From contig JAFCMP010000510.1 in assembly GCA_017506865.1 (NCBI GenBank), positions 124,001-188,000 of the forward strand: 64,000 nucleotides of DNA, given 5' to 3'. Both the position numbers and the translations under genes were made by a program. The notes under the pieces were generated by a model, which searched no databases, was not told the origin of the DNA, and saw nothing but the letters and a program-made list of their open reading frames with translations. Each line of letters begins with the position of its first letter. Position 1 is the stretch's first letter. This DNA comes from Tribonema minus (taxonomy: Eukaryota > Sar > Xanthophyceae > Tribonematales > Tribonemataceae). Of this stretch, positions 168 to 63,262 are shown in pieces.

Positions 168-917
168 CCCTCACCTCCGGTCCCAGGCCCAAACCGCATA
201 GACCTCGTAGACGTCGCCCATGGCGAACGCACACAGCCAGGCAAAAAAAGCACATCAATTTGAGGTTGCTACAGTTACTATCATCATCGCCCCTCCCCTG
301 CGGTTCCAGGACTGACACCGCAGAGGCCTCAGAGATCAGCTAGCACTTCAAAACGAAGTTGCTACAGTTATTAGCCAACCTCCCTCCGGTCCCAGAGCCC
401 ACACCGCGTATGTGGATCTCGTAGACGTCGCCCACGGCGAACGCGCGCACCAAACGGCAAGCAGTACTTCATGTTGAAGTTACTGCAGTTGATTTGTCAG
501 AGCTTCACCTTCTGTCCCAGGACCCACACCGCGTAGGCTTTGTAGACCTCACCAGCGGCAATGTTCGCAGCCAGTGCTTCAAGTTGTTGAGGTTGCTACA
601 GTTACTTCACGTTGCCCCTCACCTCCGGTCCCAGGGCCCACACGCGTAGACCGCAGGCAGCACTTCAAGGTGAAGTTGATACCAGTTCTTTCATGTTGCA
701 GTTGTTACAGTAAACTTGCCTCACCTCCGGTCCAAGCGCTCACACCGCGTAGACCTCCTAGACCTCGCCCGCAGCCGAACGCGCGCAGCAAACGGCAACC
801 AGTACTTCATGTTGAAGTTGCTAAAGTGACTTTCTCCAGCCTCACTTCGGGTCCCATGCGTAGGCCTTAAAGCTCAGCGAACACTTGAAGGTGAAGTTTC
901 TGGTGCATCGGCCTTAC
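168..917 (-). repeat. Tandem decayed copies of the donor edge of exon 918-1059
   Basis: Copies of the exon end plus its 5' splice site recur near 168-240, 285-320, 375-455, 500-560, 605-650, 712-800 and 838-870. The copies near 168, 605 and 712 keep the exact sense border CCGGAG|GTGAGG. No other gene is visible in this stretch. Confidence 0.8.
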
Positions 918-8301: not shown

Positions 8302-8952
8302 GGCCTCGCAGCTCTGCCGCCGCCGCCGCCGCTGCCGCTGCCGCTGCCGCCACTGCTGCTGCCACTGCTGCCGCCGCTGCCGCTGCCGCCGCTGCTGCCG
8401 CCGCTGCCGCCGCCGCCGCTGCCGCCGCCACCGCCGCCACCGCTGCCGCCGCTGCCGAGCGCTGCTGCTGAGCACTGCTACTGCTGCGGCGCGCTGCCGT
8501 TGGTGCGGAGCACAGGCCTCGAGTGCTGCCGCTGCTCACTTTGTGCCGCTGAGCAGTGCTACTGCTTGCTGCTGCTGCTGCGCTCTGTGATCGTCGTTGG
8601 CTCAAATTGCTGCCCGTACTCTGGCCAGAAACTCTGGCAGCGCTGATGCAACCGTGCCGCCCCTGTTGGCGCACTTTGCTGGTTCGGAGCTGCTTGCTGC
8701 GCAGCAGCACGTGATTCGCTGCTTTCGCTGCTGAGCTGCTGGTGGTGAGCGTCCACCGCTGCTGCTGCTGCTGTTGCTGCTCCGGCTGCTGATGCTGCTG
8801 CCCACGCTGGCTTTCGAACCTGCAACTTCACATGCAATGCAAACTTCTCAACTTCACATGCAACTTCAACAGGGAGCGTGGTGAACAGAGGAGTAGGGAG
8901 TGCTGCAGAGTACAGGACGTAGCAGAGTGCACGGTGGGAGCATACATACACC
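8302..8952. promoter_or_regulatory. Divergent intergenic region with GCC and CTG tracts
   Basis: It separates the minus-strand start at 8301 from the plus-strand start at 8953, so it probably holds both promoters. A near-pure GCC/GCT trinucleotide tract (about 8310-8470) lies directly upstream of the minus-strand ATG and would be CGG/CAG-rich 5' leader in that transcript. CTG-rich sequence with GAGCACTGCT words follows to about 8800. I see no TATA box. Open frames here encode only poly-Ala, poly-Arg or poly-Pro and are composition artefacts. Confidence 0.55.
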
Positions 8953-9552
8953 ATGCAGATCAATTCCACGGCTCCGAAGGCGGCGTTCTCGTTCCAATTA
9001 CCGCAGCCACAGCAAAATACACCAGGGCAACCACAGGAGACGAAGGCTGCATTCGATCTACGCTCAGCGCTATCGTCAGCCCTGCCGACTCCTGGCATCT
9101 GCCCGATGCCCACAGGGAGGCCGACAGCACCGCAACCTCAGGCATTTTTGCAAGCTTTCAACAGCATAGGTCTCAGCGCAGCGCTGGACTCATTGCCGGC
9201 ACCGGCGGCGCCCGCCAGTGCCTCGCGGGCGCTACTAGAGGCGAAGAACGCGCAGCGCGCCGCGGAGGAGACGCATGTGCCCGCGCGCTCCGCAGTCGGT
9301 GCTCCCGATGAGCCTCCGACGAAGATGGCCTATCACGCCGCACTCGGTCAGAAGGACTTGGACGACCTCGCTAGCAACGAGCACCACCTAAAAAAGGTCA
9401 GCAAAACGAAGGCGGGAGCGAGCACGAAGCAGCGGCGGCGCGGCGCGGCGGCGCGGGAGAAGGGGTCTCAGTATGAGGAGCGAAAAGCGGGGAAGGTGGT
9501 GGGTAAGGAGCGGCGGACGAATCGGATGGCGGCGTTGAAGCACATGTACTAA
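8953..9552 (+). CDS. Intronless gene for a basic 199-residue protein of unknown function
   Basis: One uninterrupted frame from ATG (context CACCATGCAG) to TAA. The first half is rich in Pro, Gln and Ala and looks disordered. Residues about 95-125 form an Ala/Glu-rich helix (ASRALLEAKNAQRAAEE). The last 60 residues are strongly basic, with clusters such as KQRRRG, KAGKVVGKERRTNR and the C-terminus MAALKHMY. A basic tail of this kind fits a nuclear, nucleolar or RNA-binding role, but that is inference from composition. I do not recognise the family. Composition and frame length differ from the surrounding repeats, and no exon-edge copies surround it, as expected for a gene without introns. It is divergent from the membrane-protein gene starting at 8301. 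Confidence 0.7.
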   Translation: MQINSTAPKAAFSFQLPQPQQNTPGQPQETKAAFDLRSALSSALPTPGICPMPTGRPTAPQPQAFLQAFNSIGLSAALDSLPAPAAPASASRALLEAKNAQRAAEETHVPARSAVGAPDEPPTKMAYHAALGQKDLDDLASNEHHLKKVSKTKAGASTKQRRRGAAAREKGSQYEERKAGKVVGKERRTNRMAALKHMY

Positions 9553-11522: not shown

Positions 11523-18044
<6,522 letters not shown>

Positions 18045-19201: not shown

Positions 19202-22200
19202 TCAACCGCCGTACACCTCGCGCCGCGCCGCGAGACTCGCGCCTAGCACGACGAGCTCCTCGGAGTGCGTGGCCACAATGGGGGTCTGCTTGAATACGCT
19301 CGCCGCCAGTGCCTGTACTGCGGGTATGCGACTGTGGAGAGAGGGGGGGGCAGGGGAAGAAAGGGGGGGGGGGGGGGGGTTACAGGGGATGAGTAATGGG
19401 GAGCGAATTAGGCTGGAACGAGGGGATGAAATGTAACGATGGGCGTGTACTTGAACATGCTCGCCGCCAGTGCCTGTACCGCAGGTATGCAACTGCGTAG
19501 AGCGGAAGGAGGGGGAGGGGGGAGGGGAAGGGGGAGCGGGGGTTAAGGGGAGCAGGTCAGGCTGACAGCAGAGTGAAATCATGGCATGAACTGCACACCC
19601 CCACACGCTTCACGCCTCATTCGGACCCTAACCCTAGCACACCTCACATCATGCACCTAAACAGAATTTGCTCACCTGCACCCGCCCACAGCAGCGCAGC
19701 TTTGATGGCATCAGTGCTCACACAACACATGCCTCATGCGGACCCTAACTGACCCTACCCCTGGCAGTAACCTGTACACCTCGCACCATGCATCTGACTA
19801 GGGTTTGCTCACCTGCACAACAGCAGCACGGCTTCAGTTTTGCGCAACTGTGCCAGCCCTGGTCCCCGGGTGAACACATCAGTCTGAGCACGTACATAGG
19901 GTATGCTCACCTGCACATACTCGCCCAGCAGCAGCACTGCTCAGACGGCACCAGCTTGCCGAACCCTAATCCTAACCCTAAGAGTGTTCTGCTCAGCGCG
20001 CACAACTAGGGCTTGCTCACCTGCAGCCGCCCACGAGCAGCACGGCTTTAACGGCATCAGTGCTCAGGCCCGCCTGCTCCAGAACGTCACGACACGGCTG
20101 AGCCGCTACCGCCATGTGGGGATCTATGAAGCGCTCAAACTGCGCGCGGGAGAGATCCATCTCCAGGTGCTGTGTGGCGGGGGTGAAAGGGGGTGGGGGG
20201 GGGGGGGGGGTTGGCAGATGTACGTCATTCGTGTGTGTTCAAAGTTCAAGTGCACATGAAGTGTAGAGGACGCTCGTCACAAGCAGCATGACGGAATGTC
20301 TCAGCTTCAGTTCATCTCCAAGGCTGCTATGAACACGTCAAACTGCGCTCATGACAAGCCCATTTCCAGATGCTGCATGTCGGGGAGCGGGCAGAGGGGG
20401 GAGGAGGGGAGGGGGGGGGGGCAATTAGCTCGTGGCAGTCGTAGATGCTCACCACAACGAGTATGAATTCTATAAACAGTCACCTTCTGTCCATGTCACC
20501 TTCTGTCCATGTCCTGCAAACAGTTTGCGAGGGGTCACGCAAAAATGCCATAGCACCAACACGTTGCAGAAGGACGGGGCCCTCTGAAGCGCAGACACGT
20601 GTCAGGGTCGTGTACGCAGTTCAAATCACGTAGCGCAAGCGGCAAACAGTAAGCCATCCCGCTGTGTGCATGTGAAGCCACATTCAAAGATTTTGGGGCC
20701 TGCCTAACAGCCGTATTGGATGAAGGCTCGGAACTGAAAACTTTGGCTTCTCATGGACTGATTTGATTTTTGATAATTGCGCGAAAATTGAAGTTCAGCA
20801 CCGGACTTGCTCTCCTTGGGGCCTGTCATATCGGCCGTGATGAAAGGCAGGCTGATGCTCATGGCCCAGCTCTCGCTGAGCTCGATCTCCGCAACGATAA
20901 TCCGCATGCCCAAGCGACCACGCTCAAGATCTGCACAAATGGATTTTCTCTCACCTTGGGGCCTGTCATGTCGGCCGTGATGAAGGGCAGATTGATGCTC
21001 GTGGCCTGGCTCTTGCTGAGCTCTACCTTTGCCGCCTCTGCAGCCTCATACAGGCGCGTCAGCGACAGCGGATCTTGTAGCAGATCGAGGCCCTTGTTCT
21101 TCTTCTTGAAGTCGGAGTTCAACTGCGCGGGCACAGAGCATGCGCAAGTTCAAATGTGAAGTTGTGAGTATTTATAAATGAAACTCTTCATTGTGCAGCG
21201 ACAGCGGGTCGTGCAGCAGATTGAGGCCCTTATTCTTCAACTAGAAGTCCAAGTTCAACTGCGGACGCAGGTTATGCACAAGTTCAAGCGTGATGCTGTG
21301 TCTGCAAATCTAGCTGCCGACGGCGTTGGTGCTGAGCTTTGCTTGTTGCGTGTTTATAAAAATCTGCCGGCTACACGTTGAAACCGTGCTGCGGATATAC
21401 TACACACCAGATGCCAACTACAACTTGCAGCCAAATCCCAAGCTCCCTAGCCTTCAGGCTCTTCTATGTACTTGCTGCAGACGGTGTTCCTACTGAGCAA
21501 CGCTATTAGCTTGCCGCGCTATGCTCCCAGCTTGTCATTTGAACACTTAAGCAAGGCTCCAAACCACACCAAGACAGCTGGAATTCCAACCCAAACTTCA
21601 AATTTCTCACCTCAGCTCCAGCGTCCGTTTGTTCCACAATGGTGCAACCTTTCTCTTTGACCATTGACTCAAACTCCAAGGCAGCAACACCAAAATTATT
21701 GAAACCCCAAGCCAAGCTTCAATTGCGCCCTCACCTCGGTCACCAGCAATTCTTCGATGTACTCGCGCCAACCGCTTTGCTGCTGAGCGATGCACTAGTT
21801 TGCCGCAAGTCTTCAACTGAAAAATTGGTGCAGAACTTCATGTTCACATGAAGTTCAACCCAAACTTCGCGGAAATTGATGCAAAACATGGAATTAATGT
21901 AAACTGCAAACCAAACTATGGAAGTTGATGCAGAACTTCAAGTTGATGTAAGCCACACTTCATGTCCGCCCTCACCTCGGCCACCAGCAGCTCTTCAACG
22001 TACTTGCCGCCAACGGCATTGCTGCTGAGCGATGCTACCAGCTTGCAGCGCAATGCCACCAGTGCTTCAATTGAACACTAACGAGTTCACCTGAAGTTCA
22101 AGCCAGACTTCGATTTCTTACCTCAGCCACAAGCAGCACTTCAATGTGCTCGCCGCCGACAGCATTGCTGCTGAGCGATGCTATCACATTGTCGCACAAT

Positions 22201-25200
22201 GCTGCAATTTTTTCAGCTGGAAATTAGCGCAGAACTTCATGCTCACCGCGTAAAAGCAAGTGAAAGTGCAACACAAACTTCAAGTTCACTCTCACCTCAG
22301 CTACCAACAGTTCTTCAATGTACTCGCCGCCAACAGCATTGCTGCTGAGCGATGTCAGTTCTTCAATTAAAAATTGATGCAGAACTTGAGATTCACATCA
22401 ACTTCAACCCAAACTTCATTCTGCCGCCCTCACCTCAGCCACCAGCAGTTCCTCAATGTACTCGCCACCAACGGCATTGCTGCTGAGCGATGCTATCAGT
22501 TTGCCACCGATGGGGGCGCCGCCACCCAAGTCCACCAGCGAGCACGACATGGTGCGGCCGCCAACGTCGACGACCGCAATTACGCCGTCACGCGCCTGCA
22601 TTTGAACCAGACAAATTCAAAAAGATCAAATCAATGAATGTATGCTTTGTAGGTATTATGTAGGTCATTTTACATGGTATTTGTTAACAGATATACATAG
22701 CTCCGCGATCTTTTGATTCGTTTTCATTGAAACTTTTCATACATGAATGGGACTATATCCGATGCTTACGCTTACGCGGCCGCCGACGTCGACGACTGCA
22801 ATCACGCCATTGCGCGCCTGCAGTTTGAGCAGATCATCGATGAAATCAATAGATTCGTTATGTGGATGAAATAAATTATTGCACATGGCATCATGCGTAT
22901 GAGATAAATTATTGCACATGGCATCACCAATGCTGAAATGAAAATATATCAAAGGTATATTTACACTGAGAAGTATATACATATACATCTCGTTGTGCGG
23001 CCGACGACGTCGACAACTGCAATTACGCCATCGCGCGCCTGCGATTTTTTTAGCATGAACACCAAGTTTATAAATTTATCATCATTTTAAAATACAGACA
23101 GGTGTGGTAACTGGCGTCCGACGTTGACGACCGCAATAACGCCATCGCGTGCCTGTCATTGAGCATACATTACAAGGAGTCCAGAAATATGTCAATGAAT
23201 GGAAAGGAAAACAAAAGATCGTAAAGCTGGCCAATGACTGGAAACGAACCAACAGAAAAGCTGTACATATAACTCAATACGTCAAAGGGTAATATTTATC
23301 GATGAAAATCTTACCCATATGCACATATGGTGGTGCAGCCGCCGACATGGACGACAGCATTGGAATTGCAAATGTTGAACTTCAAATAAATAGTCTATGG
23401 TTTTGTACATGAGAACTTAACTGCGCCTGGTAGTTGTCAATGTACTTGGAGCAATATCGGACACATATACCTGTGCGCCTTCCACGTCAACGACTGCAAA
23501 TACGCGGGTGAGTATACATATTAAATGTCAACATGTACATGTGCCGCGGTGCCAACAGCACTCAGCGCCCATTGCTACGTGTGTTGTTGAAATGAGTTTG
23601 AGTGACGTCACATCGGCAAACGCCAAATGTAGTTCAAGCTTGAGGTGCATATTCTGCACCACGAGCTCCGCATTACGCTCACGCCAAGCGTACTTCACCA
23701 TTTTCTTCAACTTTCAAGTCCGCATATTCGTCTCACGTTCAGCTGCAGCCCCATGTGCAGCGCCGCCGCGGCCGCCGCGACTGGCTCCTCGACCGTGCCC
23801 ACCACCATGATGAGAAACGGCCAGTAAGAGCCACACGGCACTGCGAGTACGCTTGTATGAAGTAGCTATTTCGAGTGTTTTTGAACTTTGAAGTGATCTG
23901 TAAGCGGGCTTTTCCTTACATCTTCCGGCAGCAGCCCCATGTGCAGCGCCGCCGCCGCCGCCACAGCCACCGGCTCCTCAACCGTCCCCGCCACCATCAA
24001 GCTTGCCACGATGCAATACGATCAGCACGAAACACGGCACTACGAGTACGGTAAAATAATTGAGAGAACTTCAAGTAATTTTCAACTGTCAAGTGCGCTT
24101 CTTCTTACCTCTTCCGGCAGCAGCCCCATGTGCAGCGCCGCCGCGGCCGCCGCAACCGGCTCCTCTACCGTGCCCGCCACCGTGAAGCCCGCCGCAGTGC
24201 CAACAGCGCTCAGCGCGGAGCGCTGCGCACCGTCAAAGTGCGGCGGCGCTGACAGCACCACTGCACCGCCGGGGCCCACCTGCAGCGGATCACGATGAGC
24301 GATGGCACGTCACATATTAAAGTTGAAGCAATGGTAGAAGCAGCGGGTCAGGCGGGCCACCGTGCTGCGTCAGGGACCAGGCGCGCTGTGCATCTCACGG
24401 AACGTTGTCACCAAGTTGAAGTGTGTTATAAGATTTGCTGCATTGTTGAGGTGCAGCGGCGCCAACAGCACCGCCGCGCCGCCGGGGCCAACCTGGGGCA
24501 GTGCGTGCGGATTGAGAAACAAAATCATTGTGATATTTGTTGAAAACCATTTTCCATTTTTAAAACCAAAGCTGTAAAGGTTTGCGGAATGAGCGGGGTG
24601 GCACGTCTCTTATTGAAGTTGAAAGAAGAATTTTATATAGCGGAAGTGACGTAAAGGCCACCGCGCCGTACCAACAGCACTCAGCGCGGAGCGTTGCGCG
24701 CTGTTGAAGTGCGGCGGTGCTGACAGCACCACCGCGCCGCCAGGGCCCACCTGCGGCGGCGCGTGCAGATCGCGAATGAGCGATGGCACGTCACTTGTTA
24801 CAGTTGAAGTGTAATACGTGCGGATCGCTGAGCGCTGTCCAAGTGCGGCAGCACCAGCGCGCCGCCGGGCCTGGCCTGCATTCAGCGCAAATGCGGATCG
24901 CGGATAAGCGATGGCACGTCTCTCACTCAAATTGAAGTAAGATGGTGGAAGTAGTGGCGTGAGCGCTGCCAGGTTGGCCAGGATGGCTGACACGACCTGA
25001 CTCCGCTGCACTGTCGCTCCCTGCCACCACCTCTGCCCCCAAGTTATTCACGCGCACAGCAATCTGACCTTAGAAGAATCGCAGTTCAAATAGTGGTGCC
25101 TACATGCCGTGTGCCCCTTGACCAATGCCACCCTGCCCAGCTTCACCCAGTGCCCCACCCCCTTCTGCCCCTAATGCATATGCGAGTGGACCTCCCACTT

Positions 25201-38989: not shown

Positions 38990-39710
38990 GCTTTATCCAT
39001 AAACCTCACCAGCTCAACTGTTGGAAGTATACAGACAGGCCGTCCCTCAAATTACTTTTCACAGCTGCTGACCCAAAATGGCGCCGGTACGTCGCTCGCC
39101 AGGTTTTCGAAAATGTGCATTTAATTCATTGAATCTTTTTAACTTTTTGAATCACTTGGTGAGAAGCTTGGGGTGACGGTTCAAGCTAATGGGGCCTAAA
39201 GTTACCTACATGCTGTCTCCATACACTGTAGTATATTTAGGTTTTCCAAGTTAGGACACTTGAATGAAGCTGTTTACCAGCATGGGTCACATGGTGCAGA
39301 TGGGTTCAAGCTTAGCCTGCATGTAGTCACATCCGTTGGAGCTTGTTGAAGTTTACTTGTTGAAGTTAGACAGACCAGGCCATCCTTCAAAATTACTTTT
39401 TACACAGCTGCTGAACCAAAATGGCGTCGGTACGACGCTCGCCAGGTTTTTGTAAATGTGCATTAAATTCATTGAATCTTTGTAGCTTTTAGAATCACTT
39501 GGTGAGAAGCTTGGGGTGACGGTTCAAGCTGATAGACCCCAAAGTTACCTACATGCTGTCTCACTACACTGTAGTATATTTGATTTTTTGAAGTCATTCA
39601 TACCTGAATGAGCTGTTTACCAGCATGGGTCACATGCTGACTATAGCTTCAGACGGGTTCAAGCTTAGCGTGCATGTAGTCACATCCATTGATGTGTTGT
39701 TGAAGTTCAA
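38990..39710. repeat. Tandem duplication of about 340 bp
   Basis: Units at about 39030-39365 and 39370-39700 share long near-identical stretches such as CACTTGGTGAGAAGCTTGGG, AAAGTTACCTACATGCTGTC and GAGCTGTTTACCAGCATGGG. I see no coding potential. Confidence 0.85.
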
Positions 39711-41244: not shown

Positions 41245-41552
41245 CTTCTAACATTGGAGCTGGTGATGCGCATCAGGTCATGCGCATTGGGTCATGCGCA
41301 TCGTTCACATACGGTACGTGCATCTGAAGCAGCAATATTTGTCCGGCGATGGCACTGCACCTATGCAACATGGTGATGTGATGCTCAAGCATATGATCGG
41401 TAGCTGGGGGCGTAGTTGAGTGTACGAAAGGATTGATATGTGGCTGATACAGGGGCTCTCGCTAAGACAATTGGTGTTACACTGCTCATATGGTCGATCT
41501 TAAACCGCATTGCTGCGGCTCGCCGCTTCTGCTTCGAGTTCTAGCTGCGGCT

Positions 41553-41553
41553 A

Positions 41554-41612
<59 letters not shown>

Positions 41613-41616
41613 ATGC

Positions 41617-41676
<60 letters not shown>

Positions 41677-41742
41677 GAGAGCACTGCTGCTGCTGCTGAG
41701 CACTTGCTGCTGCTGCTGAGCACTGCTGCTGCTGTTGAGCAC

Positions 41743-41802
<60 letters not shown>

Positions 41803-41810: not shown

Positions 41811-41899
41811 GCACTTACTGCTCAGCTGAGCATTGCTGCTGAGCACTAGTGAGATTGTGCTGTACTGCTGCTGAGCACTGCTGCTGAGCACTGCTGCTG

Positions 41900-46451: not shown

Positions 46452-46660
46452 AGTGCTTTATTTACTTGCGCTTGAGGGGCGGAAACCCGACGAGAATAGC
46501 AAAATATGCAAGTCGTGTACACATGTGTTATTAATAAAAAGTACACATGTGCTGTGCCAAACGTGCAACACATGCGCTATCTACACTATCAAATGGTCAC
46601 TGACTGCCAAGTCAACTCTAGATTGGCTTCCCGGACGCGCTGTACATTACTTACTTCCGC
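46452..46660. promoter_or_regulatory. Short divergent promoter region with a direct repeat
   Basis: Only 209 bp separate the ELM2-like ATG from the next plus-strand ATG. A direct repeat, TTACTT(G/C)CGCTTGAGGGGCG + GAAACCC, lies at about 46460-46488 and 46646-46676, the second overlapping the plus-strand start. GTACACATGTG occurs twice (46516, 46540). Confidence 0.5.
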
Positions 46661-47828: not shown

Positions 47829-50800
47829 CTGCTAATGCAGGGCGCGGTGGTCGGGCATGATGTCGCCGAGCCGCAGGTGGCGCACGAACTGCGGCACCAG
47901 CTGCGCGTCGTCGCACCTGAGCGGTGCGCACGCACAAAAAAAAAATAGCGGAAAAAAATTAACAGCGGCGGGGCACTGTTGAGCAGCAGCAGTAGCGGCA
48001 TAATTCGATTCATGTCGCACCTGAGCGGTGCGCACGCACGCACACAGAAAAAAAAGGCGGTGGGGTACTCTTGAGCAGCAGCAGCAGCGGTGGCATAATC
48101 TTTTTCATATCGTCGCACCAGGGCGCTGCGCACCAACACGAAAAGAGAGCGGCAGGGCGCCGACTTTGTGAGCAGCGGGACAATTTGCAGCATCATGGTT
48201 GCACAACCTGACGCTTGTTGTGACTTGATGGCCATGAGCTACATTGACTAGAGCCTGCGCGCATGAGGCAGAGGTTGCGCACGGCGGCGCCACGCTGCGC
48301 GTCGCTGTACCTCAGCGGTGTGCACGCGCAAAGAAGTAGGACGCACTGTCATGGGCAGCGGCACACAACTGTTACCCTCATGTTTGCTCCCGGGCGTTGT
48401 CAAGACACCGCATCTTTGTACCTGAGCGATGTTGTACAGACATGATGACCGGACCCTAACTCGGACCGTCACCATAAGCAATCCCTAACCATCACTGCAG
48501 CGGGATGCATTGCAACATGAGAACACCTGGTAGCATTGGACACCCCGAGGCGCGTCATAACTTCTTTTCCCAGAGCAATGTCTCCTAGCTCAAGCCCGCG
48601 TGCACGCTTGAGGCAGAAAGCGCGCCCGGCGGGGTGCCACGAGGCGAGACATGCTGCTACGCAGTCATCTGAGGTACATCTGATTTAACAAATTGCATTG
48701 GGAGGCTGCTGCGGGGGTGGTGTTGCTCGGTGTCAGTGTGACGTCAGGATGAAACTGAAACTGAAGCTGAACTTGACGCACCTGCACGTAACTGCTACCT
48801 CACGCGCGCCCTCATTGCACGCCAGCTCAGTGTAGAAGGCGAACAGCGCCACACACGAGGTTCAGCTGAGGCGGCATCCAACTGCAGCACGCACTGCAAC
48901 TGCCCTACGCGCGTTCAAGCTGATTAAGAGGCAATGTCAATTTGCAAAGCAATGTCAAGAGGAAGATGCAGTTGACTCACCTGCACGCGACCGCCACCTC
49001 GTGCGTGCCCTCGTCGCACACCAGCTCAATGTAGAAGGTGCGCGGCAGCACACACCAGGTTCAGCTGAAGTGAAAGCCAACGAGAAGCTGCACGCAACTG
49101 CCCCCCGCGTGCAAGCTACATTGAATTTGAAAGGCAATGTCAAGTTGAAGTTGGTGGAACATACCTGCAGGCAACCGCCACCTCGCGCGAGCCCTCGTCG
49201 CACACCAGCTCGATGTAGAAGGCGCATGGCGGCGCCGCAGGGACGGGCTGCTGCGTCCGCGTCAGCGCACCGGCGCACGCGTACACCTGACAACGCGCGG
49301 AAGCGGATGCAGGGCAGCAGCGCCGCGCATCAGACATCAGCTTCTGGCGATGCAAGAGAAGTTCGTGCTTGATGGTTGCGCCAACGACGGGTGCCTGCGT
49401 AGGCAGCAGCGCAGCGCGGCCCTGCTGCTGCTGCGGCCGCGTCAGCGCCCCGGCGCACGCGTACACCTGGAACGCGCAGCACAAATTGCAGGGCAGCAGC
49501 GCCGTGCATCAGACGTTAACTTCTGCCGATTCGACCGAAGTTCGTGCGTAATGGTTGCGCCAACGATGGATGCCTGCGCAGGCGGCGGCAGCGGCGCGGC
49601 GCGGCGCTGCTGCTGCTGTGGCTGCGAGCGCCCCGGCGCACGTGCGCACCTGGAAACGCGCAGCACCGACCGCAGGGCAGCAGCGACGTGCATCAGACGT
49701 GCACTTCTGCCGGCGGTGAGCATCGCGCATCCTCATCCGTGATCATGCATACTGGAGGACGGATATTTTGCGCTGTCAATGGGTGCTGGCGCAGTGCGCC
49801 ACTGCTGCTGCGGCCACGTCGGCACTCCAGCGGGAGCACTTGTGTCTGGAGCGTGTGGCATGGGCCGCAGGGCCGCAGCTGCAGCAGCGCTCACCGGATG
49901 ACGCGCCTTCGCGCAGGTCTTCCATGAGAGTAAATTGCAGTGCTCAACAGTTCCGCTGAAGTCAAGGGCGCGCCTGCGTGGGCGCCGGGCCGGGCTGCGC
50001 AGCAGCGTGCCGTTGCGAGGCGCGTGCGATCACACTGCGAGCAATAGGGTTGGAGTAAGGGTTGGGTAACTGTTAGCGTTGAGGTTAGGGCCGGTGTGCG
50101 CATGCGCCATACAGAGGGGGGGCAAGGAGGGCTGGGGGGCACGCTGTATCACGCTGACCCGAAAGAGTCAGTGAGGCGTTCTCATTCTACGTTTTTAAAA
50201 CACTAGTCTTGACCGCAACGCCAACCCTCACCCAATCCTAACCGTTATCCTGCAAGATCGCCTTGGTCCGGCCATTGCCACTGCTGCTGGCGGCGAAGGC
50301 GAAGCGCTGGTGCCACTGATGCGCCGCAATGACGCCAACGAGGGCTCTAATCCCGCCCTTACTTATTCAACCCAATGTTATTCCAAACCCTCATACTGAT
50401 CTACTCCTAATGTCAGCAAAGGTGAATGCTTTGTTTAACCCTCATTTCGATCCCGGGCTGCCCTTAGTCAGGCCGTTGACGCTGCCGCTGGCAATGACGG
50501 CAACGCGCTGGTACCGCAAATGTGCCGCAATGACGCCCAGCGAGGCTGTAGCCCTCACTCTAATCTTAACCAACTCCTAACCATGCACGTATAGATGCTT
50601 TCCCTAACTTCAATCCTGAAACTTCAAGCTCACCTTGGTCAGTCCGTTGACGCTCCCGCTGGCGATGACGGCGAAGCGCTGGTGCCGAAGGTGCGCCGCA
50701 ATGACGCCAACGGGGGGCACCGCCCCCACTCGCACCCTGAAACTGCCGCACTCGTCCAGCCCATTCCACCGCCTGCAGTTGTGTTACGTTGGCAAAAGTT

Positions 50801-53800
50801 GTGTTACGTTGGCAGCAGAGGGTAGAAAGAGTGTTAGTCGGCAGCAGCGGGTAGGAAGAGCGTTGATAGTGTTGGGATGGGGGTTCGCGTCCCTGGCCCT
50901 GAGATAAGGGGTTGGGGTTAGGGTCTGGGTAGGGTTAGAGTCGTCAGCCATGCACTCATTTCTGCAATTGTGGCGGCCGTGCAGGCCAGCACACCGCCCG
51001 CGTGCTTATGCCATGACAATGATGCTGGAGGTACCTGCGGAAGGCGTCGGGGTCTATGACAAACTTCCCATCTAGCAGCAGCATCTGTTGGCGGCACATC
51101 ACATCACAGCACACTGCACAGTACACCACCCGAAGATTGCACTACACGATAATAATTGCAGGTGCCTGCGGAAGGCGTCGAGATCCATCACACACGTCCC
51201 ATCTCGCGACAGTATCCGCTGGTGGCACATCACTTCAAAGTATCGACAGTGTACAGTACACCACTGGCACCAGGACACTACATACTACCAGGCTAGCACA
51301 CCGTACCAATGCCGCGAGCAAAGGCAACAGAGGCAGCTGAAAGGTGACACACACAGTCCCTGTCTGATGAAAAGGAGTGATATTATATCGTAAGCATGAA
51401 AACTGGACTGTGCCAGCTCAGCATTGCTGAGTCATCGCGCTCCAAGATCTTGAACAGATCTGGAACAAATCTCAAACAAAACCACTAGGGAAAATGAAAC
51501 TTCAAGTGCACAACTTGAAGTGCAAACTGACTGCAAACCAAAACAGTGCTAATTTGAACACAACCCTAACCCTAACCTAACATCAACCCTACTCTAACCC
51601 TAACCCTCACCCGAACCCATGATACTGTTGTGTACCTGCGGAATGCATCAAACAACCAGCATCCATATATGCACTCACGCATCCAGTGTATGCGCCATGA
51701 GCTCCAGACTTCAACACGGTGCCAGGCTTGTTTTTATGAATACATAGTGCACAAATAGTGGTGCTGCACATATCATGGCATAGCAGTTGCCACTCCAAAC
51801 GGTAAGACTCAGGTGCATCACACCCAGTCACCAAACCAAGAGAGTGTGTGTCAGTCCATGCAATGCAGTGCATGCTCAACATACTAGGATCCAGCTCTAC
51901 AGGAATGTTCACCAAGCACCATGTGCGACCTCAGAAGTTAATCCCTGCAAAATGACTGTTTGTTTACAAACTCAGCCAATAAACGAAGTTCAAGTTCGAT
52001 TTTTTTTGCAATGTTCAACATCGGAAGTTTGCGGAAGTTCTGTTACGACCACAGCACGGACGCCACAAACCACCATAGCTGCAGAGGTCTCGCACAGCTG
52101 ATGATGACCGTAGCTTTACACTCATTACGCATACCATGCGTCGAGGAGGCGTTGTTGAACAGCAACGCAGGCTTGCGCTGGGAGGTCACTGCAGCTGATT
52201 GAATGGGCAAGTGAGCACAACTCACGACTAGTGCGTGCAGCTGTTGAGGTAATGCGATGTGAGTACCTTTAAATGTTTTGTCTAGCGCAGGAACGTGCGC
52301 AGCAACTCTGCGCAGCTCACACACCGCGGAACACGCCGAATAGCGGCGAAACAGGCATTATAATCCTGAGCGTATTACTGAATCGATACAACAATTATTA
52401 TAACGTATAGAAGTATATATATACTTGTAACGTATAACATACGTTATACGCAGTTGGCAACCCTAATCAGGATCCATGACGAACTTCCCATCTCGACGCA
52501 GCATCTGCTGATGGCATGTCACATCACAGTACCTACAGTGTACAATACGCCAGAAGAATATCATTTACATATAGCTATTTATAATATTTATGTTGTGTAC
52601 CTGCGGAAGGCGGCCGGGTCCATGACGAACTTCTGATCCAGCAGCAGCAGCATCTGCTGGTGACAGATCACATCGCGGCAGTACAGTGTACAGCACACCA
52701 CCAGGAAACCATATACCTCAAAGTATATCAATCATATTACTAAAATAATAATGTTGCTCACCTGCGGAAGGCGTCGGGATCCATGACGAACGTCTCATCG
52801 AGCAGCAGCAGCAGCAGCTCGTGACAGATCACATCACAGTACCTACAGTGTACAGTACACCACCAGGACACTACAGTACATGATGACACTGGTGTGTACC
52901 TGCGGAAGGCGTCGGGATCCATGACGAACTTCTCATCGAGCAGCAGCATGTGCTGGTGACGGCTGGCGCTGGGACCGCGCTTAGAACCGCGCCTGGAACC
53001 GTCCACGCCCGCCGTGAACGACTGGCTGTAGATGGCGTTGTGCGCGCTGCCGCCGCCGCCGTCGCTGCCCTGCGAGCCGCGCCTGTCGTCGGGGCCATGA
53101 CGGGGGTCCTGAGCGGTGATGACAAGCGTGGTGATGAGCAGCAGCCTTTAGAGGAGGTTGAGCATTCGTGAGTTCCTGGACGCGAAATGTCTGCAAGAGA
53201 GCGGCTTAGGGTTACAGGTCAGGGCTTGTTATAGGGTTAGGGCTAGGGGTAGGTTCAGGGTAATTACGAGCTGCGCCTGTCGTCGGAGCCGCGGCGCGGG
53301 TCCTGAGCGGTGATGACAAGCGCGGTTAACGGCAGTGGTGATGGTGACAAGCAGTGCGCTGCAGATGGGGTCGCTTCAGGTGAGGTCTCTTCAGATGAGG
53401 TTGAGCGCTGGTGCCCACGCTGGCGGCTCATGGCGCTGCACGTTTACGTGAACTTCACAAGGGGTGTGCAAGAGTGCGCGGGTCCTGAGCGGTGATGACA
53501 AGCGTGGTGATGAGCAGCGCACGTTAGGTTGAGCGCTGCATATGAAACTGCACGTTCTCGTGAGTTTCGGGGCGATAATAGTCTGTAAGAGAGCGGCTTA
53601 GGTTTTGAAGTGAAGGTAAGCGGTAGGGTTGGGGTTAGGGTAACCTCGAGGCGCGCCTGTCGTCGGAGCCATGGCGCGCTTCCTGAGCGGTGATTACAAG
53701 CGTGGCAGTGAGCAAATCTGTGGGTTTTCATGAGTTCCGGGACGCGAAGGTTTGCAAGAGAGCGGCTCAGGGTTAGGGGTTAGGGTGAGGGTTAGGTTTT

Positions 53801-56800
53801 GAGTAACTGCGAGCCGCACTTGTCGCCGAAGCCCCGGCGCCGGCCCTGAGCGGCAATGGCTGCCCCGGCTGCTCTCCCCCAGAGTAGTGAACCATCAAGT
53901 AGCGGACCAACGTTGCGTGTCATGACAGCAACAGAGTAATTGTTATAATTTGTTCTTGTCTTTTCTTCGTTCTTATTCATCTATAGAAGAAATTAACACC
54001 GTCGCAAAAAAAATGAATCGACCTTCGGCTACTACGTGCGCCTAAAATTTCATTTTATTGTGGCAGCAGCCTTGCAGGGCGCAGGTGCACCTGTCAACTC
54101 GAGCTGCCCATACCAAGGGTGTCCGATTGACTGATCGCCACAGAGGTGACCAAACACGTGGCACGCGCTGCAATGCCTTTGGCTGGTTCCTGCTTTTTGG
54201 CTCCATTTTGAGCCAAAATTGCCGCGAAAACCTTGAATTTTCAGCTTTGTTGAGCGCTGACACATGCCTGCTGTCCCACCTGCCCCCCTCCGCCGTGATC
54301 GCTGCCTCCACGGGGGCTGCCCCCGCCCCCCTCTTCAGTCTCCGTGTCGTACTCGGAGGAGCGGCGGCGGCGGCTGCGGATCTCAATGTCGCCGTTACCA
54401 ATTTCTTCATCGGGTTCTCCCTGCTTAGAGTAGGGGGAATGGGTAAGGCGTATGCGCAGAGTGAGATTGGTGGTTTGAGAAAACAGATTCATACTTCGGT
54501 GCAGATTTTGAAAACAACGGCTTTCGTCTTGCACACTTCAGTGTGCCTACTGCCAATACTGTATGTAACATCTGGATCTCAATGTCGCCATTGCCGACTG
54601 CTTCATCGGGTTCTCCCTGAGGGAGTGATGGGCCAGGGATATGTGCAGAGTGAGGTTATCGACTAGCCTTGAGAGGCATAATCGGTATGTCTGAAAATTG
54701 TACTACACATTATGATGATGCCAACACTTTCGGATCTCAATGTTGCCGATTTCTGCATTGGGTTCTCCATGCTCAGAGTGGGAGTAAGGGGCAAGCCCTG
54801 TGTTGGGCCAGGGATATGCGCAGAGTGCAACTCTTGATCAGCCTTGAGAGTCAGGGGCGGTATGTGTCTGCAAATTGACGATTGACGACAGCGGCTTTTT
54901 TTTTTCACTGCCCAGTTTGATACTGCCAACACATTTTGATGTGAATGTCGCCGTTGCCGACTTCTTTGTTGGGTTATCCCTGTTTAGAGTAGGGAGTTGA
55001 GCCAGGGATACGCGCAGAGTGAGATTATCACCTAGCCTTGACGGTTGGGATTGGTATGCCCGCAGATTGACAACAACGGCTCTCTTATTTCTCGCACTAC
55101 CCAGTACGATACTGCCAGCCTATTTTGATCTCAATGACGCTGTTGCCGATTTCTTCATTGGGTTCTCCCTGCTCGGAGGAGAGAGTTGAGCCAGGGACAT
55201 GTGAAGAGTGAGAGTGGTGGTTTGAGAAACAGGTTCATAGTTCGGTGCAGATTTTGAAATCAAAGGCTCTTATCTTGCACAACCCAGTGTGCCCACTGCC
55301 AATACTGTACATGTGCAACATTTTGATCTCAATGTCACCAATGCCGCCTTCTCCACCGGGTACCCCCTGATCAGAGTAGGAGAAATTGGGCTAAAGATAT
55401 GCGCAGAGTGAGACCATTGACTAGCCTTGAGGGTCAGGGTCGGTATACGTCGGCAGATTGAACCAAATGCATTATTTTTATTGCAATGCCCAGTGTGATG
55501 ATGCCAACACATCTTGATGTGCACGTCGCCGTTGCCGGCTACTTCACCCGGTTCTCCCTGCTCGGAGTAGGGGGCGCTGGACAAGGAATGTGCTTAGCAT
55601 ACTGCATTTGAGGTGTGTGCCTGAGGGTTCAAATGAGCGACAGGTGCTTCGCGTACAAGCAACTTTTCGCAGCGCTGCGCTTGCCAATTTGTCAACTGCC
55701 AGTGCTGATACATCTGGACCTCAATGTTGCCGCCGTGGCCTGCTTCCGCAGCCGGGTCTCCTCGATCAGAGTCAGGGTTAGGGTTAGAGCGGGGCCAGTG
55801 ACAGGAGTGGCGTGTACGGGGGATGAGTGATGAGTAAGGTTGCAAAAAAGCGTATTTTGAAGTTTATTTTGGAGTTCAAGTGCCCCTTTTGTGGCAGACT
55901 GTATGCTCGGAATTGAGCAGACTCACCGCATGCCGTACAAATACGCCTACGCCCTTCACGCAGCATACTATCATGTTGAAGTTTGCTCACAACGTATTCC
56001 TGGTTGCCAAATTCGCCCCAAATACGCCGTATTTGTGTGGCCAAATACGTTTTTGTGCAACCCTAGTGATGAGGCTGAAAGATCAACGCTGCAGTCATGC
56101 TATGCATGCTTTGGGTACTACGCCTATCGTCACATCCAGGCGTGTAGAGGCACTGGCTCACAAGGGGGTTTAGGATTTGGTAAAAGGCTAGGGCTCGGGC
56201 TAGAGTTGGGATTAGGGCTTGCCTCTCCCCGCTGCTGCCTCTTGGCTAGCCGCACAAAGCATTGGCTCACAAGAGAGAATGATGTTCAGTAGGATTTAGG
56301 GTTAGGGTTGAGGCTAGGGTGGGGGTTAGGGCTTGCCTCGCCCCTCTCCTTCCTCTTGGCCCAGGCACTGGCTCACGAGGGAGAATAACATCCAATTAGG
56401 TTTGAGGGTAGACTTAGGGTAAGGGTATTTATTAGGGCTTGCCTCGCCCCTCTCCTTCCTCTTGGCGCGCCGCAGCAGGTACTGGCTCACGAGCAGGCAC
56501 AGAACGGCGCCCAGGAACACGCTCCAGATGTCCGTCATGAACTGGACAAACACAATCCAGGAGAGCATCGTCTTCACGTTCCATCGCTCGCTGCGCAGCG
56601 CAACAGAGAGCACGTGGGCGCGTCACAGTTGATATTGGGTCTAAAGATAGGGTTAGGTTTAGGGGTTGCGACAAGTGTCATCAAATATAGTATCCAGGAG
56701 AGCATTATCTTGACGTTCCACTGCTGGCTGCGCAGCGACAGAGCATGGGGGATAGGGGCATGGGGTGACGGCTAGGGGTCACGAACAATATCGTTGAATA

Positions 56801-59800: not shown

Positions 59801-62800
59801 CATAGAAGGATGTTTGTGTGTGCGTGTGTGTGTTGGGTCAAATACTGCCCAGTGTATGAACACATGACATGCACGTCACACTTACGCATCTAACACTAAC
59901 CGTAACCAACCCTGATCCTGACCAACAAAATCAAACTTGACCTCAACACTACCGCGGTGCCACATCCACATGGTCGAACAAAATGTCGCCCCGTTTCATA
60001 TGTGACTCTGCACGATGCTTGACATCATTACAGAATGCATCTCACGCTGAAGCTCAACATGAAGTTCACCTGAAGAGCGCGCCAGTCACAAAGCTGAGGG
60101 TGAAGGCCTGCAGAGAGGAGACCAGCAAGTCCAAGCACGACATTTTCAGTCTCCTAGAGGACTGCCATCATGAGTACAGCTGTGACGATGGTGCACAGCG
60201 TTACGGTTAGGGTTGACCCTAACCCTCACCCTAGGGCTATGACGTGGCCCTACAGCTGCTATGATCCTGTGGCTGAGGCAATATGATGGAGGCCAGGCAA
60301 AAGCCGCGTCAAACCATTCAACTAGGAGTAATCTGGTGGTTTGAATGCACTTTCTCCGCGCAGTGCGCAGTTTTTCTTCCGCCCTCGGCGCAGAAGCTTC
60401 ATTCACCTGCTGCGTAGATGTCAAGCAAGGCGCACATGCACGCCGATTGAAGGAGGTTGAACATTCGGCTCAACAGCGCTAAAGCCAGTGCACCTGAACT
60501 GAGCGAATTGGACTTGCCCCTTCCCTAGCCCTAGTTTCTTGAGGTACCTGCACACCCTTCCAAACACCACCAAGCCACAATTCGCACCATCAAAATGATG
60601 AGTACTGACAGCCCCCCCCCTGAAGGGGCAGCACCCCTTGAAAGAAACCGCACCCCCCGTGCATGTCAACGTCAACTCAAAAGGAGCATACATACATACT
60701 CTGTGGTAGATGAGCGCTGACAGGAGGACCCCCCCACGTCAGAAACGTGATGCATACATACCTTGCGGAAGATGAGCACTCACAGGGGGACCCCCACCCC
60801 CCCTCCATGGACCTCAACTGGGGGGGCCCACTCCAGTCAATTCATGCACTAGAAAAGGTGAAGCATACATACATACCTTGAAAAAGATGAGCACTCATAG
60901 GGGGACCCCCACCCCCTCCATAGAGCTGGACTGGGGCGCCCACCCCAGTCAATTCTCAAACATGCATGCATTGATTTCATGCAATGCATACATACCTTGA
61001 GGAAGATGAGCACTGACAGGGGGACGCCCACCCCCTCCATGGAGTTCAACTGAGGGGCCCACTCCAATCGATCCATGCATTGATTTATAAGGTGATACGT
61101 ACATACCTTAAGGAAGATGAGCACTGACAAGGGGACCCCCACCCCCTCCATGGAGCTGAACTGGGGGGCCCACTCGAGCCCGAACCCCGATGCTGCCGCC
61201 AGTACGACCAGCACGACGGCGGCGGTGAGGTGGATCCACGTCAGTGCGATGAGGCGGTTGTAGACCTGCGAGTGGCAAGGAATCCAATGTTAACTTCGAA
61301 CTCTTTGCGCCTGTGTAGTGCATGCCAGGGTGCATGGGTTCAATTGTGGCAGCACGCTGAATCCACGTCAGCGCGATGAGGCGATTGTAGCTGCACGCAA
61401 ATAATTCAACTTCAACTTGAACTTCATTGTGCTTGTGGTCTTTTGTGGCAGGATGACCAGCACCACGGCGGCGGTGAGGTGGATCCACGTCAGCGCAATG
61501 AGGCGATTGTAAACCTGCGCGCAGCGAATAATACAACTCCAACTTCAACTTCATCGTGATTGTGGCTTGCGCAAGTGCGGCTGTGGTCCCGACGACGTCG
61601 ACAGGATGACTTGCACAACGGCGGCGGTAAGGTGGATCCACGTCAGCGCTATCAGGCGGTTGTAGACCTGCGTGCGGCAAGGGATCCAATCTTAACTTCA
61701 ACTCTTGTATGATGACGGTGTGCGCAATGGCAGCTCTGGTCAGAGTGTACAGGTCTGATTGCGACTGCACCTAACTATCATGAGTAAGCTGGATCCACGT
61801 CAGCACTATAAGGATGTCAGGTTCTGACCCTAACCCAAAACCTCGACGCAACAGTTGATGAGATGGTTCACGCGCGCTTTGAAAAATGGCAGGTTGAAGT
61901 TCAAGTTGACATCACATCTCGGGAAAAACAGCTCAAAGCAAACACAGATAAGATTGTTCACGCGCGCTTTTAAGGAGTTGCAGTTGAAATTGAAGTTGAA
62001 ATTAAATAACTCTGCTCACCTCCTGCGTCAGATTCCTGGGCTCCCCCCATATGGGCAGAAACAGCTTGAAGCGGCGCCAGAAGAGGGACAGAGCTACTCT
62101 CCCCTCGGGACTCGTTGCCAGCAGCCCCTGCATAGCAAGCAGTAAACAATTAGCTTTTGAACATCCTTGCATATTTGGTGATACCAGTGTAGAAGGGTGC
62201 GTTGGTGAAGATGTTAGAGAGATAGGTTGTAAATTATCGCGTAATGTGGTTCCATGTTGCACTATACCGGTGTTGATCAAGTCGGTACTCGTTGCCAGCA
62301 GCCGATGCGAAGCAAGCAACAGGCCATCTGGAGCTGAATATCACATGGTGGTACCAGCGTAACAGGGCACCTTTTTGGGTACCTTGGCAAAGTGATTGGA
62401 TAAAACGGTCGTCTAAGTACAATCGAGTGGAACAGTTCCGGGTGTTGTTCACGTCTCACGCATGGGGAAGGAAGTAACGCTGTCGATGACTGCCTTTTGT
62501 GTGAACTTTATTTGACTTCCGCCTGAGGTGAGGAGATCCTATCATGCTGCACGTCTTATCAATACAACACAAATGCTCCCATTGAGCTTGTGCACGCCTT
62601 CTTCAGGATGGCAAAAAGTGACTCAGCTGCGGCAACGCTCAGCTAGAGCAGGTATGTTCACATGAGTGCCTATACATACATATCTGCCACATGAAGAGCT
62701 GGAGGATGATGAGCAGTGACTCAGCCGCGGCAATGCTCAGCTAGAGCAGGTTAATACACATGAGCTTTCTTGCACTTTTATACATACATACCTGCCATGT

Positions 62801-63262
62801 GAAGAATTTCAAGGATGATGAGCTTATATTTTAATCTTTTTAAAGTGAAAAACCTCGATAAATTATTTTAATATATGAATGAATACATAGATACCTGCCA
62901 CGTAATGAACTTGATGATGATGAGCAGTGACTCAGCTGTACCAACGCTCAGCTAGAGCAGGTACACATACACATGACACATGACTTTATACTTCAGGAAT
63001 ATAAGCAGTGACTCAGCTTCAGCCACGCTCAGCTAGAGCGGGTACATCCATCCATACATACCTGCCACGTGAAGAACTTGAGGATGATGAGCTTATATGA
63101 TTTTAAACTAAATAAACTATTTACAAAACATAAATACATACATACCTGCCATGTGAAGAACTTGAGGATGATGAGCAGTGACATGGCGACGGTGACGACG
63201 GTCTCCGTGTCGCCCGCAACCTTGCGCGCAGCGTCGGTGTTGTAGACAGTCGGATCCTCTAG
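47829..63262 (-). CDS. Large multi-pass membrane protein with soluble C-terminal tail (eleven exons, 5' end not found)
   Basis: Minus-strand exons: 63262-63146, 62127-62020, 61265-61107, 59124-58945, 58214-58096, 56590-56443, 54420-54280, 53108-52900, 50736-50634, 49286-49165 and 47916-47829 (TAG). All phases interlock; the intron after 56443 has a GC donor. Hydrophobic segments: VVTVAMSLLIILKFFTW, RLIALTWIHLTAAVVLVVLA, VGVPLSVLIFLKFTFVNIM, ALSLEVFGCMVCA, LKLLDLLFGVWVWAGIGW and MLSWIVFVQFMTDIWSVFLG with its continuation AVLCLLVSQYLL. A basic stop-transfer run (RRAKRKER), an acidic, Arg- and Gly-rich linker and a folded-looking tail (LLLDEKFVMDPDAFR, VIAAHLRHQRFAVIASGSVN, CAFYIELVCDEGSREVAVAC) follow. 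I do not recognise the family. Joining 54280 to 53108 is inferred: read through, the upstream exon would stop at 54241, giving a shorter isoform. Possible upstream exons near 63761-63837 and 63915-63950 could not be phased. Confidence 0.7.
47917..48440 (-). repeat. Acceptor-edge copies of the last exon (47829-47916)
   Basis: GTCGCACCTGAGCGGTGCGCACGCAC recurs at about 48013-48040, with weaker forms near 48110-48135, 48300-48325 and 48415-48432. The 48013 copy is nearly perfect, including the sense acceptor CTCAG|GTGCGAC, and carries A-runs like those at the real acceptor. Confidence 0.85.
48775..49740 (-). repeat. Donor-edge and acceptor-edge copies flanking exon 49165-49286
   Basis: Donor-side: CACCTGCACG(C/T)(G/A)AC(C/T)GC(C/T)ACCTC(G/A), then GC(A/C)CACCAGCTCA.TGTAGAAGG, at 48778-48845 and 48978-49045. 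Acceptor-side: GCGCACGCGTACACCTG, then GGGCAGCAGCGCCG.GCATCAGAC, at 49452-49520 and 49635-49695. Period about 180 bp on the acceptor side. Confidence 0.9.
49741..50633 (-). repeat. Intron with donor-edge copies of exon 50634-50736
   Basis: GGTC(A/C)G(T/G)CC(G/A)TTG(A/C)C, GCTGCCGCTGGC, GCGAAGCGCTGGTGCC and CGCCGCAATGACGCCAACG recur near 50260-50345 and 50468-50545. A CCCTAA-like stretch at 50040-50060 lies beyond them. Confidence 0.82.
50737..52899 (-). repeat. Six donor-edge copies of exon 52900-53108 in a 2.1-kb intron
   Basis: ACCTGCGGAAGGCGTCGGGA, TCCATGACGAACTTCTCATC and CAGCAGCATCTGCTGGTG blocks recur near 51030-51085, 51162-51225, 51634-51665 (short), 52465-52520, 52600-52665 and 52757-52820. 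Many are followed by ACATCACAGTACCTACAGTG and TACAGTACACCACCAGGA. Telomere-like runs lie at 51560-51605. Confidence 0.9.
53109..54279 (-). repeat. Acceptor-edge copies of exon 52900-53108
   Basis: C(T/C)GTCGTCGGAGCC, GCGCGGGTCCTGAGCGGTGA and TGACAAGCG(T/C)GG blocks recur near 53275-53320, 53478-53510, 53655-53705 and 53818-53850. The first three carry TTAGGG-like runs close by (53225-53260, 53620-53640, 53770-53790). 53850-54240 shows nothing further. Confidence 0.85.
54421..55800 (-). repeat. Seven acceptor-edge copies of exon 54280-54420
   Basis: GATCTCAATGTCGCCGTTGC, CGA.TTCTTCATTGGGTTCTC and CCTGCTCAGAGTAGGG blocks recur near 54570-54630, 54733-54790, 54938-54998, 55130-55190, 55325-55385, 55515-55575 and 55718-55775, period about 190 bp. 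Each copy also carries AGGGATATGCGCAGAGTGAG and a CTTGAGGGTCAGGG(G/T)CGGTATG tail. This is one of the most regular arrays in the window. Confidence 0.92.
55835..56065. mobile_element. hAT-type MITE, 231 bp
   Basis: Imperfect terminal inverted repeats: left TAAGGTTGCAAAAAAGCGTA, right end reading inward TAGGGTTGCACAAAAACGTA. They are flanked by a perfect 8-bp duplication GTGATGAG (55827-55834 and 56066-56073). T(A)GGGTTG ends plus an 8-bp target duplication fit hAT. No coding capacity. It sits in an intron of the membrane-protein gene. Confidence 0.9.
56190..57230 (-). repeat. GC-donor copies below, and five acceptor-edge copies above, exon 56443-56590
   Basis: Donor-side GGGCTTGCCTCGCCCCTCTC, CTTCCTCTTGGC and CACTGGCTCACGAG(G)GAG recur at 56215-56275 and 56330-56388, both with the same GC donor as the exon. 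Acceptor-side CAGGAGAGCAT(T/C)G(T/A)CTTCA, then TTC(C/T)(A/G)CCGCT and TGCGCAGCG, recur near 56693-56742, 56803-56855, 56933-56985, 57045-57095 and 57180-57220. Confidence 0.9.
57231..58095. other. Intron sequence with a dispersed repeat
   Basis: Includes repeat copy B at 57835-58050 (inverted partner of 9955-10170). Nothing else is supported. Confidence 0.5.
58215..59430 (-). repeat. Copies around exons 58096-58214 and 58945-59124
   Basis: Acceptor-side CTGACTCCCAATCCAAGATG at 58290-58318. Donor-side GGGGACATGCG(T/C)G(C/G)(C/G)GTGCTTCTG and GTGCGCC blocks at 58402-58470 and 58705-58775. Acceptor-side ACGTGAACGG..CGGCGC(A/G)TGA, then TTCACAAATGTGAAC(A/T)GAG, at 59362-59415, close to the real acceptor at 59085-59130. 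Confidence 0.85.
60680..61106 (-). repeat. Four donor-edge copies of exon 61107-61265
   Basis: CATACATACCTTG(C/A)GGAAGATG, AGCACT(C/G)ACAGGGGGACCCC and CACCCCCTCCATGGA blocks recur near 60690-60740 (short), 60748-60830, 60870-60955 and 60985-61070, period about 115 bp. Identity to the real exon end is high. Confidence 0.92.
61266..62019 (-). repeat. Acceptor-edge copies of exon 61107-61265
   Basis: GGTGGATCCACGTCAGCGC(A/G), ATGAGGCG(A/G)TTGTA(A/G)ACCTGCG blocks recur near 61358-61400, 61455-61520 and 61618-61675, with a shortened one at 61790-61815. Three keep or nearly keep AG. AACTTCAA words follow each. Confidence 0.9.
62128..63145 (-). repeat. Acceptor-edge copy of exon 62020-62127 and about five donor-edge copies of exon 63146-63262
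   Basis: Acceptor-side ACTCGTTGCCAGCAGCC at 62286-62305. Donor-side ATACATACCTGCCA(C/T)GTGAAGAA, then CTTGA(G)GATGATGAGCAGTGAC, recurs near 62605-62640 (partial), 62680-62730, 62788-62830, 62890-62940 and 63050-63095, with a reduced copy at 63000-63030. AATGCTCAGCTAGAGCAGGT tails appear in several. Confidence 0.88.

Follow-up and report, generated by a model that had tools for sequence, protein, structure and literature searches.

Introns of Tribonema minus that hold tandem, decaying copies of their own exon edges: probable lengthening by small duplications across splice junctions

How do introns come to contain repeated copies of the edges of the exons that they separate? This question is raised by a stretch of 64,000 nucleotides (hereafter the window) of the genome of Tribonema minus (Xanthophyceae, stramenopiles; contig JAFCMP010000510.1, positions 124,001 to 188,000 of the forward strand), in which an earlier note had described introns built from tandem, decayed copies of the adjacent exon edge together with its splice site. 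The evidence considered here comes from this window, in particular an HSP70-like gene within it, and from two gene families, HSP70 and kinesin, represented by 20 stretches fetched from the assembly (158,181,000 bases in 554 contigs). We consider it probable that T. minus introns lengthen by small tandem duplications which span exon-intron junctions, which are ignored in splicing through exon definition, and whose copies subsequently decay.

The HSP70-like gene lies on the minus strand of the window at 19.2-28.8 kb, and eight of its exons (E1 to E8) were read by comparing the exon chain with homologues. A Pfam search of ten frames gave a single match above the cut-off, the HSP70 match in E1, and two more exons (E6 and E7) were hits of the genome profile search with PF00012. 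Scans with Rfam and for tRNAs gave no matches, and a Pfam search of two of the six frames of window positions 1-15 kb, with stops written as X, gave none either. All seven internal donors have GT, all eight exons are preceded by AG, and a single open frame runs to the stop; judging by homologues, further exons may lie upstream of E1. The resulting chain of 401 residues aligns over 97-100% of its length, at 42-50% identity, with its four closest proteins (two entries named as brown algae and two jgi entries) among the best 120 of 7,994 candidates; those 120 include no protein of T. minus for the gene. A repeated exon edge is absent from the four closest homologues, so the copies do not represent exons of a protein with repeated domains.

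Copies were sought with a threshold set at the 99th percentile of 200 null scores (minimum 14), and in this gene donor-edge copies were found in all seven introns and acceptor-edge copies in six. Following the gene along the minus strand, E1 (28506-28752) is succeeded by four copies of its own donor edge (27891-28399) and then by three copies of the acceptor edge of E2 (27119-27570), which precede E2 itself (26857-27006). Five donor-edge copies of E2 (26408-26720) occupy the second intron, and E3 (25590-25715) is followed by five of its donor edge (24950-25556) and three of the acceptor edge of E4 (24435-24885). The pattern continues with E4 (24109-24279), two copies of its donor edge (23740-23982), five of the acceptor edge of E5 (22775-23510), E5 (22434-22595) and six copies of its donor edge (21309-22354), the last also appearing as family D3 in the repeat listing. 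A single acceptor-edge copy (21198-21260) precedes E6 (20955-21122), which has two donor-edge copies (20694-20873); another single acceptor-edge copy (20326-20375) precedes E7 (20021-20169), which has three donor-edge copies (19675-19954); and one acceptor-edge copy (19435-19490) precedes E8, read from its acceptor to the in-frame stop (19202-19331).

These repeats are local and direct. In a dust-filtered self-comparison of the window, 121 of 131 pairs were direct and less than 2 kb apart, four were direct and farther apart, and six were inverted; together with a null in which 0.04% of 40-base windows find a match of 28/40, this speaks against short low-complexity words as their source. The arrays are also visible in the repeat listing and to a tandem-repeat finder.

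To what extent does the pattern hold elsewhere in the genome? Adjacent Pfam hits in the sample gave 61 placed introns (8 further pairs were left without placement), of which 51, from 17 of the 20 fetched stretches plus one window intron, were retained at a splice score of at least 6 and a profile difference of at most 3, and 10 were dropped. Exon edges of 60 bases were compared with their own intron against 60 null draws, and they match it far above stretches of other genes' introns. At z of at least 4, own-intron copies were found for 16/51 donor edges and 10/51 acceptor edges; the same numbers, for a not wholly identical set of introns, exceed all 60 null draws. No edge of either kind reached this z on the reverse strand (0/51 donor, 0/51 acceptor), though 3/51 of each exceeded all 60 draws, and in the wrong-side intron, a control limited to exons of at least 130 bases, neither donor (0/26) nor acceptor (0/26) edges gave copies by either measure. 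The claim that donor copies lie downstream of the exon and acceptor copies upstream, in gene orientation, is thereby borne out.

A larger set of 57 homology-defined introns, comprising the sample with all seven introns of the HSP70-like gene of the window, contains donor-edge copies in 22 introns, acceptor-edge copies in 15 and either kind in 26, of which a few of the weakest may be due to chance (for example, the 15-base match in intron 4 of the BiP gene, L039.4). The assertion of the earlier note that most introns carry copies therefore describes the HSP70-like gene (7/7), which is richer in copies than the genome sample, and does not extend to the whole sample (26/57). Introns with copies are longer, with a median of 936 bases (813 bases when window introns are omitted) compared with 502 bases for those without (p 2e-5). 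The BiP gene (L039) has copies in introns 2, 3 and 5, and the chain joined from its exons on contig C41 (552 residues) is 100% identical to a T. minus database protein. No extra sequence is present at the BiP junctions in database proteins, including one of 99% identity named as a Trinity product, which, from its name and identity, we infer to be RNA-derived and to come from a Tribonema.

The position of the copies bears directly on several known routes by which introns and exons multiply. In intron gain by tandem genomic duplication, a duplicated exonic AGGT creates the intron itself, and the end of the upstream exon comes to lie at the 3' end of the intron, and the reverse. The presence of exonic sequence inside introns would agree with such an origin, but the copies are on the opposite side: the 5' half of the intron holds 48/55 donor copies and the 3' half 29/32 acceptor copies, and we regard this explanation as extremely improbable. 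Introners are dispersed families of related elements, known from Micromonas and Aureococcus. Repeated introns or introners are also reported from Amoebophrya (PMC7789003). The T. minus arrays resemble introners in altering the intron content of a protist on a large scale, and differ in deriving from their own exon. When a 108-base query from one array was compared with the assembly, all matches (at least 8) fell within that array; this single array showed no related elements at unlinked loci, edges match their own intron far above those of other genes, and introners were rejected. Tandem exon duplication, including mutually exclusive exons, likewise repeats exon sequence within a gene, with whole exons, both splice sites and an intact frame. 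It was rejected along with repeat-domain exons, as the T. minus copies show one edge only and are mostly frame-broken (43 of 48 indels in copies are not multiples of three), and the earlier note's view that they are not separate exons is upheld by these indels and by the four closest homologues.

What, then, is the unit that is repeated? On the donor side, a copy within the intron (at least 28/40 identity) was found for 30% of 40-base windows at exon positions -20..0, for 12% at -60..-40 and for 0.9% at -100..-80, and on the intron side for 5-9% at +20..+100; on the acceptor side the values were 20% at exon positions 0..20 and 0% at 80..100. The corresponding null was 0.04% overall and at most 0.9% in any bin. 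In exons of at least 120 bases the copies reach a median of 52 bases into the exon (n 60, range 21-118, the search being limited to 120), and successive equivalents of the junction are spaced at a median of 146.5 bases (quartiles 120 and 175, range 55-289, n 66), with 55/66 spacings between 85 and 230 bases. Nine pairs aligned base by base consist of head-to-tail units, and in five of these (L039.2, L040.3, L048.0, L051.1 and L055.2) the intron spacer is plainly repeated as well; in older units the spacers have diverged too far for this to be assessed. At unit ends, which were read by eye and are blurred in old units, neither consistent microhomology nor a consistent motif was apparent. Fresh units stand head to tail, in sense orientation and on the correct side only, at many loci, and are non-coding. 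Such junction-spanning, head-to-tail units support the proposal of the earlier note that introns have grown by repeated local duplication across the junction. A probe from the intron side (+25..+60) gave 35 matches in 23 edges with an exon side near background (0.55-0.61 vs 0.53-0.55), and most of these matches are probably due to chance.

The copies have the properties of decaying relics. In 65 copies scoring at least 20, mismatches between the real edge and its copy amount to 10.1, 7.4 and 22.0% at the three codon positions. Among third positions with A or T in the real exon, 102/182 are mismatched, 93 of them with C or G in the copy, as expected if the copies mostly preserve the exon in an older synonymous form. 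Mismatches between one copy and another also follow codon position (17.0, 11.6 and 25.0%), a pattern that can result if the exon was copied repeatedly while it evolved, and for which weak constraint is also possible. The latter raises the prospect that copies are functional, whether as alternative exon ends, splicing decoys or regulatory elements under selection. This codon pattern would agree with function, as would intact GT or AG in 56 of the 66 copies that reach the junction (donor GT 33/40, acceptor AG 23/26). Retention above the neutral level disappeared, however, with a distal probe, where both bases of GT or AG are kept in 28/41 copies, approximately 0.8 squared, which fits plain decay; given also the frame-breaking indels and the absence of copies from the four closest homologues, a functional role seems very unlikely.

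Decay with distance from the exon, as described in the earlier note, is real and more modest than was stated there. Over 23 arrays the mean rank correlation of copy score with distance is -0.32 (one-sided p 0.004), negative in 16/23; since 7 of these 23 arrays had been named in the earlier note, the p-values are optimistic. Taken by themselves, the 15 arrays from the set of 57 introns have a mean of -0.29 (p 0.07, or 0.04 with another permutation; negative in 9/15) and the eight further arrays -0.36 (p 0.03).

In the reading that we favor, each duplicated segment takes in about 30-90 bases from the edge of the exon, along with the splice site and some tens of intron bases. Such duplicates would be tolerated under exon definition, with splice sites paired across the short exon: counted from the acceptor of an exon, the real donor would still come first, and no other acceptor would lie between the real one and that donor. 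If these outermost real sites are the ones used, the inner decoys would be removed along with the intron. Selection would remove duplications confined to an exon or comprising an entire exon, since these would alter the protein. Purifying selection would also preserve the exon edge as an undecaying master, with even old copies remaining recognizable, and repeated events beside the exon would produce a weak decay gradient. The duplications themselves most likely arise by ordinary routes, such as fill-in repair of staggered breaks or slippage.

Several observations weigh against this reading. In 27/40 cases the score of a decoy donor equals or exceeds that of the real one, so correct splicing would have to rest on exon definition; for acceptors this is so in only 5/26. 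Such a difference would be expected if decoy acceptors, lying upstream, carry the greater risk, but plain decay of a longer motif could suffice. No exon-edge duplication spanning a junction was found in the four introns compared between the paralogues L041 and L042. In addition, 29 of 33 arrays touch the junction, against 12.3 expected from uniform placement, in a BLAST self-comparison that misses some near-diagonal copies (L039.2, L048.0). Finally, spacers are more diverged than in simulations of neutral junction duplicates with simple indel models. Identity between real edge and copy at +25..60 is 0.595, compared with 0.68-0.73 simulated at ages bracketing the exon part, and copy-copy spacer identity is 0.61/0.52 compared with 0.70-0.84/0.64-0.81; larger spacer indels than those modelled could close the latter gap. 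The simulated duplicates approach the exon part of the copies and not the deeper spacer.

Do these discrepancies mean that the junction itself is special? The excess of junction contacts and the over-diverged spacers make junction preference, or copying from the exon, possible. In one form of this idea, junctions are preferred sites of nucleosome-sized (approximately 147 bases) duplication or of exon-to-intron copying, with the exon edge seeding its own intron again and again, introns growing from both ends and the oldest copies in mid-intron; we hold this extension only tentatively and suspect that it does not apply. An opposite explanation is that tandem duplication is uniform everywhere and that junction arrays only seem favored, owing to the undecayed exon member, fast turnover of intron interiors and shorter introns at the time of the events. 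The exon being undecayed, detectability does favor junction arrays: exon-copy pairs diverge on one branch and intron-intron pairs on two. The exon derivation of the copies claimed in the earlier note is supported, with part of their exon-derived appearance due to selection sparing only the exon member from decay. Uniform duplication also gains from spacers that diverge faster than the simulations allow, from older introns having probably been shorter (given the median of introns free of arrays) and from the acceptor side, where windows of at least 36/40 identity make up 0.9-2.3% at the edge of the exon and 0.8-1.9% inside the intron, leaving the concentration hardly visible. On the donor side, in contrast, their share is 8-10% from -60 in the exon to +20 and 0.4-1.3% from +20 to +100 in the intron, and ungapped pairs touch the junction in 41/93, 34/56 and 20/32 cases at three thresholds, compared with 20.9, 11.8 and 6.0 expected. 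By a rough estimate, the 29/33 junction contacts exceed what detectability alone gives, although fast turnover of intron interiors could reach this value. On this balance we consider uniform duplication unlikely. Splice scores of ungapped repeat families provided no discrimination, as single random stretches reach about 8 by chance, and a reversed-sequence null for ungapped pairs, unfiltered for low complexity, was set aside.

A further alternative makes the exon edge an active donor, with copies made or refreshed from the exon by gene conversion or junction-specific copying while the spacers diverge until almost random. In 17/17 arrays, copies resemble one another more closely over the 40 bases derived from the exon than over the adjoining 40 intron bases, but these copies were found by their similarity to the exon, which favors the exon side. 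The larger gap between exon and spacer identity than in simulated neutral duplicates points the same way, as does the tendency of high-identity ungapped segments to end within about 20 bases of the splice site on the intron side. Against this, when detection was based on exon positions -60..-25 only, identity at +6..25 was near the neutral model (0.677 vs 0.68-0.74 simulated), and fresh units carry their spacer along. An active exon donor is in our estimation quite improbable, and small tandem duplication across the junction remains the preferred reading.

Related loci provide additional observations. L041 and L042 are 75-89% alike in long alignments, and their intron 4 with 90-base flanks is identical save for one base of length, which suggests a recent gene conversion. 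The HSP70 loci L013 and L015, on different contigs, are approximately 95.5% identical over 4.1 kb and are either recent paralogues or unmerged haplotypes. The two pairs contain four indels of at least 20 bases: those of 20 and 106 bases (L041/L042) are not local copies, and those of 24 and 29 bases in L015 match their own right flank.

How far is such a process already known? Small tandem duplications arise at DNA breaks through fill-in by Pol alpha-primase (PMC8355091), and the T. minus arrays share with them a local, head-to-tail arrangement that needs no element or long homology. That work concerns short (<100 bases) insertions and engineered breaks and not splice junctions, whereas the T. 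minus units center on 147 bases, arise repeatedly at a single junction and are in contact with it in 29/33 arrays. In Drosophila, new intron positions have been attributed to tandem duplication of coding sequence (PMC2891723); both cases involve tandem duplication of exon-containing DNA that alters intron structure, but the Drosophila case creates an intron position, while in T. minus an existing intron is lengthened, with copies on the other side from the one which that model predicts. Exon definition, in which donor and acceptor are paired across the exon (reviewed in PMC3488318), would explain the choice of the outermost site, but is a rule of splicing and no source of repeats. The earlier note knew of no named mechanism with this signature; it was right that introners do not account for it, and a named building block, small tandem duplication, does exist. 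Tandem duplication is an already published route of intron gain. No account of its use at existing junctions, lengthening introns by exon-edge copies at many loci of a genome, was located among the literature listed, as judged from titles and abstract openings.

Outside the HSP70-like gene, the window contains additional arrays. All seven arrays named in the earlier note are present in the orientation given there; two of them (21.7-22.4 and 27.9-28.5 kb) fall within the HSP70-like gene, and five were compared with window stretches of equal length taken 6 kb or more away (up to 200 draws). These five and three neighbors make eight exon edges with 4 to 8 local copies each above the highest null score. 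On the minus strand, the exon at 915-1062, read by eye, has eight acceptor-edge copies (1190-2523) and five donor-edge copies (178-788). Also on the minus strand are five donor-edge copies (51033-52810, the farthest at 51033) of the exon ending near 52900, six acceptor-edge copies (54574-55557) of the exon starting at 54420, four donor-edge copies (60705-61055) of the exon ending at 61107, four copies (61358-61813) of the stretch 61231-61290, which straddles an acceptor placed by eye near 61265, and four donor-edge copies (62684-63092) of the exon ending at 63146. The plus-strand edge at 14.8 kb has four donor-edge copies (14876-15205; family D6 in the repeat listing). A ninth tested edge, near 32.0 kb, gave three copies. 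It lies in one of several more local arrays (31794-32422, 34386-34990, 39056-39594, 49247-49712 and 50256-50731) that are possibly of the same kind. The window also holds short telomere-like runs of TTAGGG/CCCTAA type inside the contig (7100-7179, 14434-14467, 51562-51618 and 63466-63501) and long GCT/GCC/CGG triplet runs (8316-8457, 36444-36523 and 41544-41802, the last with approximately 88 imperfect units).

The source of the bases in long introns is often hard to tell; in these T. minus introns it is legible, each copy being a fossil of its own exon. As the copies keep older synonymous states of the exon, the growth of an intron could be ordered and dated, and the many strong decoy donors would make the rule by which the outermost site is chosen directly testable.

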